Shown in pieces: positions 17,753 through 28,839 of a DNA stretch of 64,000 nucleotides; positions within the stretch are counted from its first letter, which is position 1, and every line of letters starts with the position of its first letter. Position numbers and translations under genes: made by a program. This stretch comes from Rhodohalobacter sulfatireducens. GTDB taxonomy: Bacteria > Bacteroidota > Rhodothermia > Balneolales > Balneolaceae. Location: the NCBI RefSeq assembly GCF_022012475.1, contig NZ_JAKLWS010000011.1, positions 1 through 64,000 of the forward strand. Direction: 5' to 3'. The notes under the pieces are model-generated. The model ran no database searches. It was given only the letters and a program-made list of their open reading frames with translations, and had not been told where the DNA came from.

Positions 17753-18385
17753 ATGGTAAATAAGCAGAAGCTTTTGCAAGTATTTCCACATCTGAATTCT
17801 GAATTGATACTGGAAATTGAAGATAACGCATTGAAGAAAGATATACCCAAAGGAACAGAAATTTTGCGGGAGGGACAATATGTATCGGTTGTGCCGATTG
17901 TTATGGACGGGCTTATCAAAGTATTTAAACAATACGAGGAGAGAGACCTGCTGTTATACTACATCAAACCAAACGAAAGCTGTATTATGTCGTTTGCAGC
18001 CGGGTTGAAAAATGAGCCGAGTAATGTGTTTGCGCAAACTGAAGAAGATACGACGGCATTGTTGTTACCGGTAAAAAAAATATTCAGCTGGATAAAAGAG
18101 TACCCGGAACTGAACTCACTGTTTTTTCAGCAGTACAACATTCGTTACAGTGAATTGCTTGAGACTATACAACACGTCTTGTTCAATAAAATGGATCAAA
18201 GATTGTATGATTACCTGAGAGAAAAAATTGATCTCTTGAATAAAAATCCGTTAAAAATTTCTCACAGGCAGATTGCCAGCGATTTAGGAACGGCAAGAGA
18301 GGTTGTGAGCAGGGTTATGAAAAAGCTGGAACAAGAGGGAAAAGTGAAACAGCAAGCAAACGGCATAGAAATTTTAAAATGGTGA
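17753..18385 (+). CDS. Crp/Fnr-family transcriptional regulator
   Basis: This 210-residue protein has an N-terminal cyclic-nucleotide-binding-like beta-barrel (about 1-125, with KGTEILREGQYVSVVPIV and the roll ending in VKKIFSWI), a long dimerisation helix (about 127-155) and a winged helix-turn-helix. The recognition region reads HRQIASDLGTAREVVSRVMKK, typical of the Crp/Fnr family. No FNR-type N-terminal cysteine cluster is present, so it is not a classical oxygen sensor. A DUF2892 membrane protein follows 142 bases downstream on the same strand, a pairing often seen in Bacteroidota and therefore a plausible target. Confidence 0.88.
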   Translation: MVNKQKLLQVFPHLNSELILEIEDNALKKDIPKGTEILREGQYVSVVPIVMDGLIKVFKQYEERDLLLYYIKPNESCIMSFAAGLKNEPSNVFAQTEEDTTALLLPVKKIFSWIKEYPELNSLFFQQYNIRYSELLETIQHVLFNKMDQRLYDYLREKIDLLNKNPLKISHRQIASDLGTAREVVSRVMKKLEQEGKVKQQANGIEILKW

Positions 18386-19185: not shown

Positions 19186-20097
19186 TTATTTATTTACAGA
19201 AAAATTAAATACATCAGGTCTGGAGTAGTGACCCACACAATCAAACATCCGTTTGGAAGCTATGATCTGTTGAAGATCAATATCAGCGTAAAGAATTTCC
19301 TTTTCCGCTTCCAGGGGACCTGCTAAAATTTGTCCAGTTGGAGCGATAATGCAGCTGTTTCCTGTATTGATCCACTCCCTGTCATCCGGATAGAGATTTT
19401 TAAAATCGTAATCATCAGGAATGTCATCTATTTTAAGAGCCATACACGTACTGATGACAAAAATCCCACCTTCTCTTGCGATGTGCTGCATGGATTGCAA
19501 CCATTTGGGGCTTTTATCCCATGTTGGAGATGCAAGTATTTGCACTCCGCTTTCATAAATGGCCGTTCGGGCAAGGGGCATGTAGTTCTCCCAGCAGATT
19601 AACCCGGCAAGTTTGCCTGCTGAGGTATCGTATGATCTCAGCGTATCTCCTTTTCCCTGTGCCCAGATCAGACGCTCGCCACCTGTGGGAATCAGTTTGC
19701 GATGAGTGCCTATTATCTCCCCCTGATCACTAATAAATAACAGGCTGTTGTACAGGCTTGCCCCGCTGGTCTCGGAATTCCGTTCGTTCATACCCATCAC
19801 AACATTCACCCCGGCTGTCTTTGCAGCTTTGCAAAGCTGGTTGGTCGATGAATCAGGTACAGAAACGGCATTTTCGACCAGTTTTATATAGAGCTCATTA
19901 AGAGCAGCTCCTTTACTGTTCGGAATCAGCCATACCCAATCCGGGTAACCGGAAAGAAACGCTTCGGGAAAGACAATTAACTTTGCACCATTTTTTCCGG
20001 CTTCCAGAATGGCCGAGCAAGCTTTTTCTACTGTTTTTTCTTTATCCAGAAACACAGGTGAAAGTTGTGCTGCGGCTACTCTGATAGTTTCGGTCAT
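19186..20097 (-). CDS. Nitrilase-family carbon-nitrogen hydrolase
   Basis: This 303-residue cytosolic enzyme shows the complete nitrilase catalytic set: E45 (FPEAFLSGYP), K134 (HRKLIPTGGERLIW, with the second glutamate E141) and the nucleophile C168 (LICWENYMPLAR). The motifs FLSGYPDW and CWENYMPL are those of the true nitrilase/cyanide hydratase branch rather than amidases or N-carbamoylases. The reaction would be nitrile plus water to carboxylic acid and ammonia. It lies 33 bases after the EthD-like gene on the same strand, suggesting an operon. The substrate is unknown. Length fits the family. Confidence 0.9.
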   Translation of the reverse strand: MTETIRVAAAQLSPVFLDKEKTVEKACSAILEAGKNGAKLIVFPEAFLSGYPDWVWLIPNSKGAALNELYIKLVENAVSVPDSSTNQLCKAAKTAGVNVVMGMNERNSETSGASLYNSLLFISDQGEIIGTHRKLIPTGGERLIWAQGKGDTLRSYDTSAGKLAGLICWENYMPLARTAIYESGVQILASPTWDKSPKWLQSMQHIAREGGIFVISTCMALKIDDIPDDYDFKNLYPDDREWINTGNSCIIAPTGQILAGPLEAEKEILYADIDLQQIIASKRMFDCVGHYSRPDVFNFSVNK

Positions 20098-20130: not shown

Positions 20131-20454
20131 TCAAACCATTACTTCACTGATTTGAATAACAGGTTCAATATTGGTGAAATTTGGTAAATCAGCCATTATT
20201 TGTTCAGCATTCGGTCCAAATGAATTTTGAAATGAGTCCATTGATTCAAAATATAGATTTCCCATTGCAGCGAAAGTTGCCATAGATCCGGGTGCACCGC
20301 CTCCGAGGCCTTTTTCAACCGTTGCTCCTTTTATCGCATCGCCTAGTAATCCGGCTACCATCGATACATGTTGATTGCAGTAGTAATCTATATCAAAATT
20401 CTTCCCTTTTGCATTGGGGTATAACACACTTACTTTTATCATGCCTTTTTTCAT
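20131..20454 (-). CDS. EthD-family ferredoxin-like fold protein
   Basis: This 107-residue protein begins with IKVSVLYPNAKGKNFDIDYY and continues CNQHVSMVAGLLGD, the recognised pattern of the EthD family (a dimeric alpha+beta barrel first seen in ether-degradation clusters). It ends with a short strand (PVIQISEVMV). EthD-like proteins accompany oxidative degradation enzymes, but their exact role is unsettled. The gene precedes the nitrilase gene by 33 bases, so they probably share a transcript and a small-molecule degradation task. Confidence 0.82.
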   Translation of the reverse strand: MKKGMIKVSVLYPNAKGKNFDIDYYCNQHVSMVAGLLGDAIKGATVEKGLGGGAPGSMATFAAMGNLYFESMDSFQNSFGPNAEQIMADLPNFTNIEPVIQISEVMV

Positions 20455-20751: not shown

Positions 20752-22128
20752 TTAAGCCGGCTTTATATTCTGATTGATATGGAAAAAGTTGTTCGGATCA
20801 TATTTGGCTTTTACCTTTTTTAATCGTCCGTAATTATCTCCATACGAAGCTTTAATCCTGCTTTCTCCCTCCTCCATCATGAAGTTCACGTAGGCACCGC
20901 CATCGGAATATGGTGTAATGCCATCATAGTAATTTTTGCACCATGTTGTAACAGTATCTGCGTTTTCAGGATCAGGAGAAACCCCAACAATTACCTGCGA
21001 CCATCGTGCATCTCTTTTTGCCCAAGCAGTTTCACCGGGTTTCATATCATGAACAGCTCCGTCAATAGGATACAGATGAGTAGTTGAATGCATTGTTGGG
21101 ATGTTGGAACCATGTCTAATATTTTCGCTAATGGCGTCGTCGGTTAGTTCTTTGATAAAATGGGCTCTCCAATACCACTGCATTCCGGATGGGTACAGTT
21201 CATCGAACATTCCGTTGAGATCGGGCATGGGAATTTCGCCGACAAAGTCGAGAATGGGTGGCCCAAATTCCCTGATCGGTTTGAACACCTCTTCAGCTTT
21301 TTCCATGGGTCCGGTGTAACACCAAACGATACCACAGACATTTTTTGAATGGAGGTGTTCGGGAAATGGATCACCGGGTGGGACAATCAGAAATGCAAAG
21401 AATCCATACAAGTCATTCGAGGCATTTTTTGTGATCTGATCGTAAAATTTCATTGCTTCGTGAGCTTTCTCCAAAGGCCAAAACATCGGACCAGCGTATA
21501 CATTTTTAATTGGTAAAAGATTGAATGTAAATGAAGTTACAACCCCAAAATTTCCACCACCGCCCCGGATTGCCCAAAAAAGATCCGGATCACTATTTTT
21601 ACTAGCTGTAACTATTTCGCCTGACGCCAGTACGACCTCTGCTTCTATTAATCGGTCAACCGTTAATCCACCTTTTCTGCTCAAGTATCCGATACCACCT
21701 CCCAATGTAAGTCCACTCACACCTGTAGTGCCAATAATTCCACCTGGCAGAGCAAGACCATACTCATGAGTAGCGTTGTCTACTTCTTTCAGTAAGCATC
21801 CTGCCTGAACAACAGCTGTTCGATTCTCGGGATCAATTTTAATGTCCTTCATCAGAGATAGATCGATAACCAATCCACCGTCAACCAGTGCCAGCCCTGC
21901 CCCGTTATGGCCACCGCCCCTAACAGAAACTTCAATTCTCTCGGTTCTGGCAAAATCAACGGCTGCCTGAACATCCTTTTTATTTTTACATTTTACAATC
22001 AACGCAGGGCGCTTGTCAATCATAGCATTGTAGATACTACGCGCATCATCATAAGCATCATCATTGGGCAGAATAATTTTTCCGTTTATTTTTTCCTTCA
22101 AACTGCTTGTTGATATAGGAGTTTTCAT
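20752..22128 (-). CDS. Berberine-bridge-type FAD-linked oxidase
   Basis: This 458-residue protein has an FAD-binding PCMH domain with VRGGGHNGAG, where H74 would be the covalent 8-alpha-histidyl flavin attachment. The segment GTTGVSGLTLGGGIGYLSRK follows, with LFWAIRGGGGNFGVVTSF after it. At the place where bicovalent BBE enzymes carry the second, cysteinyl link there is GIIGTTG, so only a single link is expected. The C-terminal BBE motif NNFFHINQNI completes the family signature. Bacterial members oxidise sugars, alcohols or alkaloid-like substrates. No signal peptide is seen. It stands alone, near the EthD-nitrilase pair. Confidence 0.9.
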   Translation of the reverse strand: MKTPISTSSLKEKINGKIILPNDDAYDDARSIYNAMIDKRPALIVKCKNKKDVQAAVDFARTERIEVSVRGGGHNGAGLALVDGGLVIDLSLMKDIKIDPENRTAVVQAGCLLKEVDNATHEYGLALPGGIIGTTGVSGLTLGGGIGYLSRKGGLTVDRLIEAEVVLASGEIVTASKNSDPDLFWAIRGGGGNFGVVTSFTFNLLPIKNVYAGPMFWPLEKAHEAMKFYDQITKNASNDLYGFFAFLIVPPGDPFPEHLHSKNVCGIVWCYTGPMEKAEEVFKPIREFGPPILDFVGEIPMPDLNGMFDELYPSGMQWYWRAHFIKELTDDAISENIRHGSNIPTMHSTTHLYPIDGAVHDMKPGETAWAKRDARWSQVIVGVSPDPENADTVTTWCKNYYDGITPYSDGGAYVNFMMEEGESRIKASYGDNYGRLKKVKAKYDPNNFFHINQNIKPA

Positions 22129-22480: not shown

Positions 22481-22978
22481 TTACCCTTCATTTAAGGGTG
22501 AGTGATGCTCATGCACAATTTTCCAGTCTCCTTGATTATTTTTAACAAAAATAAGGCTGATCTGATCATTCACTACAGCCATCTCCTCTTCAAACTGCAG
22601 ATGAAAATCTGAATGAAAGGTTACTACAGCTACATTGCCGTGATATACAGCTACCTTCATATCATTCGCGTCCATTTTTACAGCTTCTTTGACACTTCCA
22701 AAAACTCCGCGTTCAAAAGCTTCATTTTCCTCTCCGCCATTGCGGGGTGCGCCCTGCTTGAATTCCGTGAACTTGGGCCCGTATGCATGGAAAGAGATTA
22801 ATTTGTCTATGTCACCAGCTATCACACTTTCAGTAATTTCCTCCATGGTTTGCAATACTTCGGCTTTTTCTGCCGGGTATTCAGACATAATGCCATCATT
22901 GGATTGAGCCTGGCAGGCTGTGAATGCCCAAACGAGGAGCAGGATACAGATCAGGAAAACTTTATATAAACTGTTCAT
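22481..22978 (-). CDS. Exported NTF2-like (SnoaL/DUF4440) protein
   Basis: About 165 residues from the preferred ATG at 22978; an ATG four codons earlier is less fitting. The N-terminus is a lipoprotein or secretory signal (ILLLVWAFTACQAQ, with a possible lipobox cysteine in FTAC). The mature part has the NTF2 fold: a helix AEVLQTMEEITESVIAGDID, then LISFHAYGPKF, and strands ending in IFVKNNQGDWKIVHEHHSPL, a pattern shared with DUF4440/SnoaL_3 proteins. These are ligand-binding or unknown-function domains. Being exported is somewhat unusual. No operon partner is evident; AraC-type regulators lie upstream on the same strand. Confidence 0.8.
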   Translation of the reverse strand: MNSLYKVFLICILLLVWAFTACQAQSNDGIMSEYPAEKAEVLQTMEEITESVIAGDIDKLISFHAYGPKFTEFKQGAPRNGGEENEAFERGVFGSVKEAVKMDANDMKVAVYHGNVAVVTFHSDFHLQFEEEMAVVNDQISLIFVKNNQGDWKIVHEHHSPLNEG

Positions 22979-23146
22979 AATAATCACCATTTTTAAGGTT
23001 AAATATTGAAGTCAGTTTATAGATAGTGCCGCGTTTGTTTCTCTTCCACCTCATTTGTTCCAAAAAATGCAACATATGTTGCATGCATAAAAAGAAGCAG
23101 AAAGTTCTGGAAAAAGTGCCTTAAACTTCGTTTTCTGTTGTGTTAA

Positions 23147-24259
23147 CTACACTTTAACTTTGATTTTAGAAGGAGATATACCATACTTATTTTTGAAGCA
23201 TTTGGCAAAATAGGATGGGTTGGAGAACCCCAATTCATAAGCTATTTCAGAGATTGATAACTCTCTCTCTTTAATCAAGTTGAGTGCATATCTGAGCCTG
23301 ATGTCCCTGACAAATTGAACCGGAGAGGTGTTAGACATGGAGTTTAATTTCCGATACAACTGCGCCCGGCTTAATCGCATCTCTTTACTCAATTTATCAA
23401 TGGTAAAATCAACGTTAGAAATATTCATGTTGATATGATCAAATAACCGGTGAATAAAACCCTGGTCTGATTTGTCGATAATGCTGATACCGGGTTCGTC
23501 CATTTCTGTTTTACATAAAATGCTTATCTCCTCAAATTCAATAGGTATTACAATCTTTCCATTTTCAGCAATTTTGCAATACCACATACTTTCATTTAAA
23601 GCCTTTTGGAAAATTTGGTCATCCGTTGTTGCAACCGGTTCTCCAATGCACAAGCCCATAGTAAACTTGAAGTTCCATTCATTAGATGTGTATTGAACTT
23701 GATGGGATTGAAATTCCTTCTGGATCTCTTTAGCACAGAGAATACAGCTTTCCGGTGTTTTAAAAACAGCAATGACTCGATCATAAGACAATTGGTTAAC
23801 AATATTACCATTGTTTTTTAAAATGAATCGTTCAGCAGCTTCAAGTGGTTGCTGGGGCAGTTTTAGTTCATCAAAATCAATAAAGTCAGTCAACCGTGTA
23901 ACGGCGTAAATATCCAGGGTAAGGATAAATCGAAAACCACCATCTGGATTTCCATTTTTATCTACAACTAAATCATCTCTGTCTCTCAGGTCTTTCCCCA
24001 TAAAGGCTGAGTAAAGACCTCCCTCCACTTCCACAATATTGCACGTTTCTATCCCATTAGCTAAAAGATGTGTCTTACGAATGGCTTCCTTATTTGGGGC
24101 CTTCATCAAGCAAAAAACTTTACCGCTCTCTTCATTTACCCAATAGGATATGTACTTTACATCATACTTTTCCTGAACAGCCAAATCTTTCAGATGAGCT
24201 TTTTCAGCTTCATGTATTTTTATTCCCGGCGTATCGTGGCAATCCATGTATAAAGGCAT
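23147..24259 (-). CDS. Regulator: DUF4242 + cyclase-like + AraC DNA-binding domains
   Basis: This 370-residue protein has three parts. Residues 1-85 match DUF4242 (MPLYMDCHDTPGI..., then VNEESGKVFCLMKAPNKEA), a ferredoxin-like fold whose relative SCO4226 binds nickel. Residues about 108-245 resemble a class III nucleotidyl cyclase: ILTLDIYAVTRLTDF, then DRVIAVFKTPESCILCAKEI and FTMGLCIGEPV. The second metal aspartate is not in a clear GDG motif, so catalysis is doubtful. Residues about 268-370 are an AraC domain with two helix-turn-helices (LSKEMRLSRAQLYRKLNS and ISEIAYELGFSNPSYFAKCF). A close paralogue lies 136 bases upstream on the same strand. Ligand and target genes are unknown. Confidence 0.82.
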   Translation of the reverse strand: MPLYMDCHDTPGIKIHEAEKAHLKDLAVQEKYDVKYISYWVNEESGKVFCLMKAPNKEAIRKTHLLANGIETCNIVEVEGGLYSAFMGKDLRDRDDLVVDKNGNPDGGFRFILTLDIYAVTRLTDFIDFDELKLPQQPLEAAERFILKNNGNIVNQLSYDRVIAVFKTPESCILCAKEIQKEFQSHQVQYTSNEWNFKFTMGLCIGEPVATTDDQIFQKALNESMWYCKIAENGKIVIPIEFEEISILCKTEMDEPGISIIDKSDQGFIHRLFDHINMNISNVDFTIDKLSKEMRLSRAQLYRKLNSMSNTSPVQFVRDIRLRYALNLIKERELSISEIAYELGFSNPSYFAKCFKNKYGISPSKIKVKV

Positions 24260-24395
24260 AGTATAATTTATTAGAAGAGTGAATGTTATAGAATAAATGC
24301 GATAAAATTACCATTAATGCCTCATTTAAAGGCTAAAAAGCTTTTTAAAATTATTATTGGAGTCTCTTTAATTCCTATAAAAACGGTTAGCCAAA

Positions 24396-25499
24396 CTATA
24401 CGGCTACATTCGAAGCCTTCACTCCATATTTTTCACGGAAACATTTTGAAAAGTACGAGGGGCTATTGAACCCAATTTCCAGGGCAACTTCAGAAAGGTT
24501 GTACCTGTTTTCTTTTATGAGCGAAAGAGCCTTGATCAATCGTATGTCTCGAATAAATTCAACAGGTGAACGACCGGTAACTGCCTTGACCTTTCTGTAA
24601 AGTTGAGACCGGCTGATCCCAATATCACGACAGAGTTTTTCCACGTTAAATGTATGATCGGCACAATTCTTCTCGGTGATATCAAACAATTTCTCAAGAA
24701 ACTCTTCGTCTTCCGATTGTATTGATTTTAAGGCTGAACTGCTATATTGCTTCTCCGGCAACTCACTCAATTTACTAATCATGTTTGATGCAACTATCTC
24801 TCCATCAGACGCAATTAAGCTAAGGCGTTTTGCAAGAAGTATGGTATCCTCAAAAAATTGATCGCTCATCGTAACAGGTTGGCCACCACCAACCCCGATT
24901 TTGAACCTGATATTCCAGGTTTCATCATCCGGATTCTTCATCCTTTTTAATAACTCTTTTTGAATCTCGATAGCACATCCTAATGCTTCTTCAGCTTCTG
25001 TAAATACACACAGGATACCATCATAATCTCCGCTTTTAATCTCCCGACCTTCGTATGACGGGATAATTTTCTGAATCATTTTTTTGGGCATACCAGGAAT
25101 AATCAACTGCTTCAGATCATCTGATCCGGTAGCTGTTGTAATTCCCAGGATATCAATCGCAAGAACAAAGCGGTAAGCTTTATCTAAATCACCATCTTTA
25201 GCAAGTACAATTCCATGATCAACTTTGGGCGATTCACCCATAACCAGTTTATAAAAACCGCTCTCAACCTTTACAATATTACAGGCAATATTTCCATGGG
25301 CTTCCTGGTGAACGGCTTCACAGGATTGCTTATCAGGTGCCTCAATGAGACAGAAGATGGTTCCGGCTTCCTGGTTCACCCAAAACTGGATATATTTGAC
25401 CCCGTGCTTATCCTGTACGGACCTGTCTGCCATATGACCCTGTTTCACTGCATCGATGCTAATATCAGAAATGATATGATAATCCATGAATAAGGGCAT
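24396..25499 (-). CDS. Paralogous regulator: DUF4242 + cyclase-like + AraC domains
   Basis: This 367-residue paralogue of the neighbouring gene has the same order of domains. DUF4242 spans about 1-85 (MPLFMDYHIISDIS; FWVNQEAGTIFCLIEAPDKQ; VHQEAHGNIACNIVKVESG). The cyclase-like domain spans about 108-245 (FVLAIDILGITTATG; SGDYDGILCVFTEAEEALGC; RFKIGVGGGQPV). The AraC domain covers about 265-367 (CRDIGISRSQLYRKVKAV; LSEVALEIGFNSPSYFSKCF). GDYDG is closer to the cyclase GDG motif than in the other copy. The pair probably arose by tandem duplication. They may hetero- or homodimerise through the cyclase-like domains; that is inference. Confidence 0.82.
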   Translation of the reverse strand: MPLFMDYHIISDISIDAVKQGHMADRSVQDKHGVKYIQFWVNQEAGTIFCLIEAPDKQSCEAVHQEAHGNIACNIVKVESGFYKLVMGESPKVDHGIVLAKDGDLDKAYRFVLAIDILGITTATGSDDLKQLIIPGMPKKMIQKIIPSYEGREIKSGDYDGILCVFTEAEEALGCAIEIQKELLKRMKNPDDETWNIRFKIGVGGGQPVTMSDQFFEDTILLAKRLSLIASDGEIVASNMISKLSELPEKQYSSSALKSIQSEDEEFLEKLFDITEKNCADHTFNVEKLCRDIGISRSQLYRKVKAVTGRSPVEFIRDIRLIKALSLIKENRYNLSEVALEIGFNSPSYFSKCFREKYGVKASNVAV

Positions 25500-26172: not shown

Positions 26173-26829
26173 ATGAAAACAACGAATTTATTCACACTCG
26201 TATTTTTAACTGCTTCATTGGCGGTCAGCACGTTTGGCCTTGAACTATCAGCACAGGAACTGAACAACAATCCCGAATTGGACGAACAGGTTCAGACTTT
26301 TCTTGATGAGAACCGACGTAGCTGGCGCGACATGAATATTCCCGCGATAGATGGGCAAATCCTCCATGATATCATTGTTGAGAACGGCTACACCCGGGCG
26401 CTAGAAATTGGGACTTCAACCGGGCATTCAGCGATCTGGATTGCCTGGGCACTCAGCAAAACCGGCGGAAAACTGATCACCATCGAGATTGATGAAGATC
26501 GTTACAATGAAGCCCTGGAAAATTTTGAGGAAGCCGGGCTCTCAGAATTTATCGATGCAAAACTCGCAAATGCCCACACACTTGTTCCCGAACTGGAAGG
26601 TCCATTTGATTTTGTTTTCTCAGATGCGGACAAAGACTGGTACACCAATTATTTCAAAGCGGTGGATCCTAATCTGGTAGTTGGAGGTTGCTTTACTGCT
26701 CATAATATTGGCAGAGGCCGTGGTGGTACTACTGAGTTTTATGAACATATATCCAGTCTTTCAAATTATGAGACTACGCTGAACAGCACCGGGAATGGGG
26801 TTTCGATTAGTTATAAAAGAGGGGAGTAA
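26173..26829 (+). CDS. O-methyltransferase-like protein with signal peptide
   Basis: The 218-residue product is a class I SAM-dependent methyltransferase of the caffeoyl-CoA/catechol O-methyltransferase type. Motif I is ALEIGTSTGHSAIWIAW (about 76-92), the acidic turn is ITIEIDEDRYNEAL, and DFVFSDADKDWYTNYF carries the metal-binding aspartates. Unusually, residues 1-27 look like a Sec signal peptide cleaved at LSA-QE. Since SAM is cytosolic, either the signal is a membrane anchor or the enzyme is exported for another role. Similar leader-bearing homologues occur in Bacteroidota. AGGAG at about 26161-26165 gives a good RBS. A GC-rich hairpin follows. Confidence 0.82.
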   Translation: MKTTNLFTLVFLTASLAVSTFGLELSAQELNNNPELDEQVQTFLDENRRSWRDMNIPAIDGQILHDIIVENGYTRALEIGTSTGHSAIWIAWALSKTGGKLITIEIDEDRYNEALENFEEAGLSEFIDAKLANAHTLVPELEGPFDFVFSDADKDWYTNYFKAVDPNLVVGGCFTAHNIGRGRGGTTEFYEHISSLSNYETTLNSTGNGVSISYKRGE

Positions 26830-27241: not shown

Positions 27242-27817
27242 ATGGCTGAAACAACAGATCAAAAAACATTGAACTTTGATGAGCTTTATGAGGAGTACGG
27301 CGATCGAATATTAAATATGGTATACCGTATGACCGGTGAAGAAGAGGCTGCCAGGGACCTTACGCAGGATATCTTTATGAAGGTTTATGAAAACCTTGAG
27401 GATTTTAAATATCAATCCAGCGCATATACCTGGATTTACAGAATTGCCACAAACCATACGCTAAACTATCTGAAGAAAAGAAACAGGTATAAGTGGTTGG
27501 ATCTGTTAGAGCGATCTGTTTCGGAAGTGATTCAATCGGAGACACCCATATTTGAATTTTGGGGTAACGATGGATTTGAATCGCCAGATATGAAATTAGA
27601 GAAGGAGGAACGGGAGGTGCTGGTCTGGAAACTCATTCAAAAACTCCCGGTCAAATACAGGCTGCCGCTGGTTCTACAGAGGTACGATGAAATGGGAAAT
27701 AAGGAGATCGCGGATGTAATGGATCTCAGTATCAGTGCCGTTGATTCCAGGATTTATCGAGCCAAAAAGAAATTATTGGATCTCATGAAACCGCATCTGG
27801 AGGATTTAAGAGGTTAG
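27242..27817 (+). CDS. ECF-family RNA polymerase sigma factor
   Basis: This 191-residue protein is a sigma-70 of the extracytoplasmic function group. Region 2 (about 12-85) includes LYEEYGDRILNMVYRMTG, ARDLTQDIFMKVYENL and YTWIYRIATNHTLNYL; region 4 (about 128-185) includes LPVKYRLPLVLQRYDEM and KEIADVMDLSISAVDSRIYR. It directs RNA polymerase to a stress regulon. Its anti-sigma factor begins 21 bases downstream and a Spy-like periplasmic protein follows, overlapping, so the three genes form one operon. The trigger is probably envelope stress. Confidence 0.92.
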   Translation: MAETTDQKTLNFDELYEEYGDRILNMVYRMTGEEEAARDLTQDIFMKVYENLEDFKYQSSAYTWIYRIATNHTLNYLKKRNRYKWLDLLERSVSEVIQSETPIFEFWGNDGFESPDMKLEKEEREVLVWKLIQKLPVKYRLPLVLQRYDEMGNKEIADVMDLSISAVDSRIYRAKKKLLDLMKPHLEDLRG

Positions 27818-27838
27818 TTTAAAAGAAAAGGTGATAAC

Positions 27839-28309
27839 ATGATGAGTAACAGAAACCACGTAAAAAAATATTTCCTTGATTGGTTGGAAGGACACCTTGA
27901 TGAAGACAAGGAAAAAGAGATCAACCGGCATTTAAAACAGTGTGAATCTTGCCATTCATACTTTCAAACCATGCAAATTATCATGGAAGAACCGAGTCCC
28001 GAACGGCTGCCAGATTTAAAGAGAGATCCATATCTGCCTGTTCGGATTAAACAGAAAGCATTCAAGAGTTCTGAACAGGATTCGGTTTCAATTTTTGGTC
28101 TTTCGAAAGCACTAACCGGATCACTGGTTGTGCTGGGACTTCTCCTTGGATTTTTAACGGGACAACTGCTGGTGTATCACACTGAAACTTCACAAGATGT
28201 TTCCGAACAAACCTCGGTTTCAGAACTGTATTACGAGGGGATGGTTCAGCCGAGCTTAGGATCAAATTTTGAACAAGTATTAACAGAAATGGAAGGTGAT
28301 CAGCAATGA
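27839..28309 (+). CDS. Anti-sigma factor with zinc-finger (zf-HC2) domain
   Basis: This 156-residue protein has an N-terminal zf-HC2/ASD module with HLKQCESC (H31, C35, C38), the HxxxCxxC zinc motif of ECF anti-sigma factors. One transmembrane helix lies at about 91-113 (LTGSLVVLGLLLGFLTGQLL). The C-terminal 40 residues would be periplasmic. Its position directly after the sigma gene and its topology support membrane sequestration of the sigma factor. Its 3' end overlaps the start of the next gene by 4 bases, suggesting translational coupling. Confidence 0.85.
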   Translation: MMSNRNHVKKYFLDWLEGHLDEDKEKEINRHLKQCESCHSYFQTMQIIMEEPSPERLPDLKRDPYLPVRIKQKAFKSSEQDSVSIFGLSKALTGSLVVLGLLLGFLTGQLLVYHTETSQDVSEQTSVSELYYEGMVQPSLGSNFEQVLTEMEGDQQ

Positions 28310-28839
28310 AAGTAAAAACAATGGTCGGTACACTCATCTTTTTAATTGTTCTGAATATTGGGGTTTTAGGGACGATCGTGTATCTGAATGTAGCCGAACG
28401 TGTGCCTCCAATTGCGAGGTTTTTAAATCCCGAACCCCGATTTGAACCCCCTTTTGCCGGCGAAATGAAACGTATTGATAATCTAACTCCGGAACAGCAG
28501 CAAAAGATGGTTCAACTCGTACAATCCTATCAGTCAGAAATAGAACCTATGCAGGAAGAGATCCAGGTTCTTGAACAAGAGATGTTTCAATTACTGGTCG
28601 ATCAGGAGGAGGTTGATTCCATTGGGACTGAAAATATCTTGCGTGAAATTGCAGCTATTCGATTAGAGATTAGTAAGCATGCTTTGGAGAGTCTGCAACG
28701 TTCAAAAACATTTCTGACTAAAGAACAACAGAATAGCTTTATAAGGAGGATTATGTCGACTGGCCGCAGGCCCAATTTTGGTCCTGGGCTCAATGGCCCC
28801 AACCCACCTATGTTAAACAGGCCTTTTGACAATCAGTAA
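28306..28839 (+). CDS. Spy/CpxP-like periplasmic heavy-metal-sensor-family protein
   Basis: This 177-residue protein has one N-terminal membrane helix or signal (residues 5-27) and then a helical, charged domain starting LTPEQQQKMVQLVQSYQSEI, the LTxxQ-type opening of Spy/CpxP/CnrX-like proteins. A second similar segment is FLTKEQQNSFIRRIM. The tail is proline- and asparagine-rich. The domain may act as a periplasmic sensor or chaperone feeding the anti-sigma factor. Its ATG overlaps the anti-sigma stop. No histidine-rich metal site is obvious. Confidence 0.72.
   Translation: MKVKTMVGTLIFLIVLNIGVLGTIVYLNVAERVPPIARFLNPEPRFEPPFAGEMKRIDNLTPEQQQKMVQLVQSYQSEIEPMQEEIQVLEQEMFQLLVDQEEVDSIGTENILREIAAIRLEISKHALESLQRSKTFLTKEQQNSFIRRIMSTGRRPNFGPGLNGPNPPMLNRPFDNQ

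Follow-up and report, generated by a model that had tools for sequence, protein, structure and literature searches.

A 64,000-nucleotide stretch of the Rhodohalobacter sulfatireducens genome (contig NZ_JAKLWS010000011.1, positions 1 to 64,000; hereafter the window) carries two tandem genes, whose products we call P1 and P2. Each joins a SCO4226-like domain, a class III cyclase-homology domain (CHD), and an AraC-type DNA-binding domain on a single chain. We conclude that P1 and P2 are probably one-component regulators that descend from a sensor cyclase and control the adjacent oxidase operon through DNA binding. The two proteins are 37% identical across their entire length, and the host genome comprises 5.1 Mb in 138 contigs. 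Their genes and domains are as follows (Z and root-mean-square deviation, rmsd, from fold comparison):

24396..25499, minus strand: P2, 367 aa, predicted SCO4226-like/pseudo-cyclase/AraC regulator, upstream gene of the pair
25260..25499, minus strand: P2 SCO4226-like (DUF4242) domain, residues 1-80 (PF14026, 1.7e-16; PDB 4oi6, Z 12.4, rmsd 1.2 over 80)
24762..25184, minus strand: P2 CHD, about residues 106-246 (D, K, D, and R kept; adenine D replaced by Q and N by L)
24405..24716, minus strand: P2 AraC-type DNA-binding domain, about residues 262-365 (HTH_18, 2.6e-19; PDB 3lsg, Z 17.0)
23147..24259, minus strand: P1, 370 aa, predicted SCO4226-like/pseudo-cyclase/AraC regulator, downstream gene of the pair
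24020..24259, minus strand: P1 SCO4226-like domain, residues 1-80 (PF14026, 1.6e-20; 4oi6, Z 12.6, rmsd 1.2 over 80)
23522..23944, minus strand: P1 CHD, about residues 106-246 (D, D, D, and N kept; K replaced by N and R by W)
23159..23467, minus strand: P1 AraC-type DNA-binding domain, about residues 265-367 (HTH_18, 8.1e-20)

An earlier note on this DNA had read both proteins as a DUF4242 module, a cyclase-like segment, and an AraC C-terminus. The two ends stand as described: PF14026 (SCO4226-like, formerly DUF4242) spans residues 4-78 in P1 and P2 above its gathering score, and HTH_18 (PF12833), an AraC/XylS-type double helix-turn-helix (HTH) of ~100 residues, lies above its cut-off at both C termini; the HTH is AraC-type by Pfam and a LuxR-type HTH is absent. 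For the middle segment, Pfam returned no cyclase family, including PF00211, in either protein among matches to E 10 within HMMER's filters, so such proteins may pass unnoticed. The host genome's sole PF00211 match at E ≤ 0.001 (G000:C50:333893-334321) lies away from the P1/P2 locus.

The middle of P1 and P2 is nevertheless a class III CHD. Single-sequence phmmer searches of PDB chains matched P2 residues 139-246 to 3mr7 (8.7e-9) and residues 138-241 to Ma1120 (1.3e-8), and P1 residues 112-239 to 3mr7 (5.8e-5). A profile built from the cyclase part of 36 two-domain relatives, which have the SCO4226-like domain and CHD without AraC, scored P2 at 9.8e-24 and P1 at 1.2e-13; it matched 69/69 AraC fusions below 1e-4, while the best value among 1,380 shuffled middles was 0.52. 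A 75-member family profile (10 of them two-domain) in turn found Ma1120 (1.5e-25), 3mr7 (6.6e-23), Rv1900c (8.6e-17), and SCO4226 (9.4e-18). AlphaFold models of the monomers, whose input alignments contained some two-domain cyclase relatives, were confident (predicted local distance difference test 90.7 for both; predicted template modeling score 0.90 for P2 and 0.89 for P1) and placed the P2 middle on 3mr7 (Z 13.7, rmsd 4.2 over 158 residues) and the P1 middle on 5m2a (Z 14.8, rmsd 3.2 over 147). The cyclase-like reading thus holds: residues 105-245 rise above background in searches against PDB chains and the relatives' profile, though not against the Pfam cyclase model itself.

What is left of the catalytic apparatus? 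A working class III site comprises six positions: two metal aspartates, K, D, N or Q, and R. All six are present in 36/36 two-domain relatives and in 0/69 AraC fusions (114 proteins merged to 109, with the partial sequences L095, L120, L125, and L126 left out), and a second, different alignment likewise contained no fusion with a complete set. Three residues are kept in 25 of the fusions, two in 14, four in 13, one in 8, none in 8, and five in a single protein (L111). P1 is without K and R and P2 without the adenine D and N; both retain the two metal aspartates. The motif strings quoted in the earlier note do occur in P1 and P2, and alignment places the second D of GDYDG in P2 and the D of SYDR in P1 at the GDG aspartate. 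Judged by these residues, the middle of P1 and P2 is a pseudo-cyclase, predicted to be catalytically dead.

Conservation follows the same division. In the fusions the commonest residue at a position has an average frequency of 0.64 in the sensor, 0.41 in the CHD, and 0.56 in the HTH, against 0.68 (sensor) and 0.67 (CHD) in the two-domain proteins, indicating that the sensor stayed under constraint while the catalytic domain drifted. The CHD residues still conserved (R110, G151, F166, P208, and F216) we take to be needed for the fold. Could the pseudo-cyclase itself be the sensor, binding ATP, GTP, or a cyclic nucleotide together with metal, without catalysis, and so steering DNA binding? The fold is well kept in both models, both metal aspartates persist in P1 and P2, and the GDG-position aspartate is kept in 45/69 fusions. 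The first metal aspartate, however, survives in only 29/69 and K in 18/69, and these losses, with the low CHD conservation, make nucleotide sensing hardly a family-wide rule. We consider it unlikely; the nucleotide sensing raised in the earlier note is weakened by the incomplete catalytic sets of P1 and P2, which leave room for binding without catalysis.

The preferred reading places the input in the N-terminal domain, where D6, H8, H22, D25, W40, C50, P55, and H64 are invariant (100%) across the 36 two-domain proteins and reach 99 to 100% across the 69 fusions. SCO4226, the nickel-binding protein of Streptomyces coelicolor, carries the same residues (its D6/H8/H23/D26/W41/C51/H65). A second alternative is that this domain senses nickel or another transition metal and that P1 and P2 control a metal response. 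SCO4226 is reported to bind Ni and its gene to be Ni-induced, but the affinity is low (10 uM), and the authors thought the Ni-1 site (Asp43, Ser46, and His76) conserved (PMC4186839). The program alignment covers the first two of these positions: N replaces Asp43 in both P1 and P2, and the Ser46 position holds A in P2 but S in P1. Neither protein reached the SCO4226 nickel-binding equivalog model NF033706 (48.7 and 50.1 bits vs. a curated cut-off of 125), and the neighbors tested encode oxidase, EthD, nitrilase, SnoaL-like, and glyoxalase-type proteins, with no metal transporter or other metal gene named among them. Despite the near-invariance of D6, H8, H22, D25, C50, and H64, we therefore rate a nickel or metal-response regulator low. 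Because Asp43 is N in both proteins, this His/Asp/Cys set is the likelier ligand site of the SCO4226-like family, and what it binds could be a metal or some other ligand. Of the earlier note, the domain assignment and the proposal of a one-component regulator with an unusual sensor are supported; nickel sensing finds no support in the known Ni-1 site.

How widespread is this architecture, and did it arise once? A full-length three-domain match was found in 14/244 genomes of the window's class and a two-domain match in 2/244 (E ≤ 1e-20, with at most eight candidates scored per genome); in a sample of the phylum, 18/394 genomes contained a match to the first two domains (E ≤ 1e-25), including a few that were partial or had no HTH. 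The relatives' loci are the best 80 of at least 512 relatives, and some loci with G handles may represent the same organisms as named ones. In the tree, AraC fusions come from Bacteroidota, the window's class, and metagenome-assembled genomes (MAGs) of Ignavibacteriota and KSB1 (one each), and proteins without HTH from Pseudomonadota, Verrucomicrobiota, Actinomycetota, Chloroflexota, one Chitinophagaceae MAG (L055), and two genomes of the window's class (L017 and L018). A tree of the first 248 residues divides the fusions into two clades, I and II (54 and 15 rows). These lie beside two intact cyclases, L055 with support 96 and L017 with support 80, and this tree rejects a single clade (approximately unbiased test, P = 0.0102; 0.009 without 12 long-branch rows). 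The CHD-only tree implies one change, the SCO4226-like-only tree three, and an HTH tree puts both fusion clades on one side with a support of 11. All are "quick" trees. A single origin also fits, given the CHD-only tree, the unsupported HTH tree, and the candidate operator common to both clades, so that on these sequences the fusion may have arisen once or twice. A phage or plasmid origin was set aside: a pattern scan of viral contigs contained no close relative of P1 or P2, and among the matches listed for 523 plasmid records with some match to P2, none spanned 80% of it.

We next asked which genes accompany the fusions. Four genes lie downstream of P1 on the same strand, within the predicted target operon:

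22481..22978, minus strand: SnoaL-like protein with a signal-like N terminus (by eye), first gene of the predicted target operon (PF13474, 1.4e-9)
20752..22128, minus strand: flavin adenine dinucleotide (FAD) oxidase of the EncM/berberine-bridge type (PF01565, 1.8e-33; PF08031, 2.1e-14)
20131..20454, minus strand: EthD family protein (PF07110, 1.6e-7; TIGR02118, 2.9e-22, above cut-off)
19186..20097, minus strand: nitrilase-family hydrolase (PF00795, 1e-51; plant NIT4, 3.5e-64)

The start of the SnoaL-like gene conserved in the alignment is 22978 (its first ATG is at 22990), and the best solved relative of the oxidase is EncM (4.8e-93 over residues 6-457). The neighborhood is conserved. Downstream sequence of 2.5 kb or more is available for 45 clade I loci; in these, an EncM-type oxidase follows the regulator in 32, a SnoaL/cupin gene in 20, a nitrilase in 8, and any of these partners in 41 (same strand, within 4.5 kb). 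The oxidase is also downstream in 4/11 clade II loci with room, while none of 33 two-domain loci has any of the partners there. For these counts and the repeat counts below, the duplicates L023, L024, L035, L042, and L054 were left out, L150, outside the tree, was counted with clade I, and L095, cut by a contig end, is among the 37 two-domain loci. Matches to the oxidase BBE domain number 0 to 3 in each of nine genomes from the window's family, so chance adjacency should be rare.

Oxidases also accompany intact cyclases, in another arrangement. Eight two-domain loci (L059, L066, L069, L073, L075, L080, L081, and L082), all from Verrucomicrobiota MAGs, share the same-strand order EncM-type oxidase, OsmC, SCO4226-like/intact cyclase; these would be oxidases with a second-messenger sensor of their own. 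OsmC is directly upstream of the cyclase in 10/37 two-domain loci. In Cerina (L025) the order is OsmC, fusion, oxidase, and an OsmC relative (1.2e-63) adjoins both the AraC fusion and the oxidase. Since such neighbors occur with intact cyclases and with fusions, the pathway link seems to be present on both sides of the switch from enzyme to regulator. One further locus (L126; G012:C1:780664-781000) carries a 99-residue SCO4226-like open reading frame (ORF) that closely resembles the regulators' sensor domain and overlaps the beginning of a short fragment (21 positions) of a berberine-bridge oxidase C terminus. A deletion between a second regulator and the oxidase belonging to it seems to have left this remnant.

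Where might the regulators bind? The intergenic region between P1 and the SnoaL-like gene holds two elements:

23049..23083, minus strand: candidate operator, a direct repeat of TGCAACATATGTTGCA (23068-23083) and TTGGAACAAATGAGG (23049-23063), with the half-site TGs 21 bp apart
23015..23021, minus strand: TATAAAC, a conserved -10-like element between the operator and the SnoaL-like gene, with a putative promoter role

An alignment of this region from five genomes reads TGCAACAWATGTTGCA, 5 bases, a TG[GAC]AACAWATG half-site, and then TATAAAC. The stretches upstream of P1 and of P2 are poorly conserved in the five-genome alignment, and no conserved repeat was seen there by eye. The exact palindrome, searched apart from the second half-site, occurs once in the 5.1-Mb host genome, with 7 further sites at one mismatch; 4 of these 7 contexts were inspected by eye and none had a second half-site. 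The composite of both half-sites, searched across the whole genome, occurs once without mismatch, the next matches having three. With TGTTNCA as its first half, the composite is found in 7/244 genomes of the class (G000, G012, G016, G035, G044, G067, and G101), always right behind a regulator gene. A looser composite (≤2 mismatches) reaches 70/244; many of the matches beyond the seven look by eye like coding repeats rich in CAG/ATG and were discarded on the basis of their sequence. In Carboxylicivirga (L048), the exact palindrome stands upstream of a SnoaL-cupin gene that precedes the regulator, and a palindrome-type match near the end of a cupin gene in L089 was not used. One subclade repeats TTGAATCAATTG-like half-sites at 21 bp between the regulator and the nitrilase gene (a methyltransferase gene in L102); in the Chitinophagaceae group no clear repeat was seen by eye.

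The 21-bp spacing recurs across the family. Counted with no fitted model, pairs of TGNANC[AG] at this spacing are present in 15/70 regions downstream of regulators, in 0/70 upstream, and in 1/37 behind two-domain proteins, and other spacings from 8 to 44 bp occur at most once each downstream of regulators, except 43. Spacing 43 was observed in 7/70 downstream regions and may point to a third, promoter-proximal element. We also trained a weight matrix on 13 sites and scored the remaining loci, taking P ≤ 0.01 to mean that no shuffle out of 100 (mononucleotide) did as well; this level was reached in 15/38 clade I and 8/13 clade II held-out downstream regions (23/51 together), compared with 1/39 and 0/14 upstream; two-domain relatives reached this level in 1/36 downstream and 1/35 upstream regions. 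Part of the held-out set is closely related to loci used in training, and clade II is the more independent test. A 21-bp spacing of direct repeats is known for AraC sites, and the geometry fits AraC-type dimers. The direct repeat can be proposed as an AraC-type operator of P1 and P2. A third alternative would assign it to another regulator and have P1 and P2 act elsewhere: the repeat was matched to them from its sequence, and the window has nearby ORFs that, by eye, read as regulators of the Crp/Fnr and AraC types. We regard this as quite unlikely, because the TGTTNCA composite, wherever it occurs among the 244 genomes, directly follows such a regulator gene, because its spacing suits AraC-type dimers, and because similar repeats stand behind the second fusion clade.

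The tandem P1/P2 pair is present in G000, G012, G016, and G035, and just one of the two was found in G044, G075, and G101, which suggests that one regulator suffices; where both occur, P2 and P1 may split the task or sense two forms of the signal. Their losses are complementary, P1 keeping D and N and P2 keeping K and R, and a heterodimer with one working site could be imagined to still produce cyclic nucleotide; in class III dimers, however, K, D, N, and R of one site are supplied by the same subunit, so neither a homodimer nor a P1/P2 heterodimer could form a complete canonical site, and this, together with the genomes that have only one of the genes, makes a heterodimeric cyclase very improbable.

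We propose the following mechanism for P1 and P2 as regulators of the oxidase operon. Input would enter through the SCO4226-like domain, which is ferredoxin-like and is dimeric in SCO4226, its D6/H8/H22/D25/C50/H64 set probably binding a small ligand or a metal that is linked to the oxidase pathway. The dead class III fold would be retained as a dimerizing, signal-transmitting module, and the AraC-type C terminus would bind the directly repeated pair of half-sites, spaced by 21 bp, that closely follows the regulator gene. Bound there, the AraC domains would activate, rather than repress, the SnoaL-like/EncM-type FAD oxidase/EthD/nitrilase operon. In a mainly Bacteroidota lineage, the second-messenger step would thus have been lost and direct DNA binding put in its place. 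The candidate operator, the predicted target operon, and this switch from enzyme to regulator did not figure in the earlier note.

Several points weigh against this interpretation. Neither P1 nor P2 has lost a metal aspartate, a retention that decay alone would not call for. The four partners searched for are absent downstream in 4/45 clade I and 7/11 clade II loci with room; 6 of those 7 clade II loci adjoin a small SCO4226-like gene instead, one of them upstream. The held-out loci include 23/38 of clade I and 5/13 of clade II with no repeat at P ≤ 0.01. The loci are related, so the counts are not independent, and the evidence is wholly computational, with structure models of monomers only. 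We lean toward the broader view that a whole lineage of sensor cyclases became transcription factors: the sensor domain would have been kept along with its tie to an EncM-type oxidase pathway, the cyclase killed and reused as a transmitter, and the second messenger replaced by an AraC domain with a dedicated 21-bp-repeat operator, in a conversion that maybe took place twice.

How does this architecture compare with known systems? SCO4226 (PF14026; PDB 4OI3/4OI6) has the same fold as the sensor, but it is a single domain of 82 residues, whereas P1 and P2 add two domains and are without the Ni-1 Asp43. The class III cyclases of the Ma1120/3mr7/Rv1900c type share the fold and sequence of the middle domain but not the incomplete catalytic set found in every AraC fusion examined. 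AraC/XylS regulators and the hybrid two-component regulators of Bacteroidota share the C-terminal DNA-binding domain—by sequence, the best PDB match (12aw) comes from a hybrid two-component protein, and in the sampled genomes the next HTHs lie in ORFs of mostly about 1,300 to 1,450 codons—yet the sensor half of P1 and P2 is a SCO4226-like domain and a pseudo-cyclase. AraC regulators with odd sensors are many. The photoactivated cyclases bPAC and OaPAC resemble P1 and P2, by fold matches and by the ferredoxin-like fold of BLUF, in having a small ferredoxin-like domain before the cyclase; theirs is a light-sensing BLUF domain, with an active cyclase and no DNA-binding domain. A cyclase domain with an HTH is already known in mycobacteria, where Rv0386 and its relatives carry a CHD and an HTH output on one chain; that HTH is LuxR-type, cyclase activity is spoken of for Rv0386, and the accessible part of the report does not mention a SCO4226-like domain (PMC3466318). 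Annotations, too, already connect the sensor domain with cyclases, as three Streptomyces homologues carry the database name guanylate cyclase in the SCO4226 report (PMC4186839). Among the titles and abstract openings listed in searches of open-access papers, we did not find the SCO4226-like/pseudo-cyclase/AraC architecture, its operator, or the linked catalytic loss described.

If correct, our interpretation would provide a clear case of a second-messenger enzyme turned one-component regulator, with intact relatives, a partly decayed form (L111, five of six sites), and strongly decayed forms all available. The poorly understood SCO4226-like domain would gain a reporter, as its ligand could be sought through induction of a known promoter with the proposed operator, and that ligand may carry over to intact cyclases with the same sensor domain. 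The predicted target, an EncM-type oxidase operon of environmental bacteria, would become testable too.

Other observations concern the neighbors of the fusions and the rest of the window. The small SCO4226-like gene of clade II is downstream of the regulator in L067, L127, L128, L129, L130, and L136 and upstream in L131; a further copy accompanies L150, a locus outside the tree. Pfam was run as a check on three of these neighbors, several have a signal-like N terminus, and the three compared (L127, L128, and L136) are without the sensor H8/H22/D25 set. In the window, an ORF at 17753-18385 (plus strand), near the nitrilase gene, reads by eye as a Crp/Fnr-type regulator. An O-methyltransferase (PF01596) at 26173-26829 (plus strand) has a signal-like N terminus, unusual for such an enzyme. 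Within 27242-28839 (plus strand), a 191-aa ORF with sigma-70-type regions 2 and 4 is followed by ORFs that resemble, by eye, an anti-sigma factor and a small exported protein.

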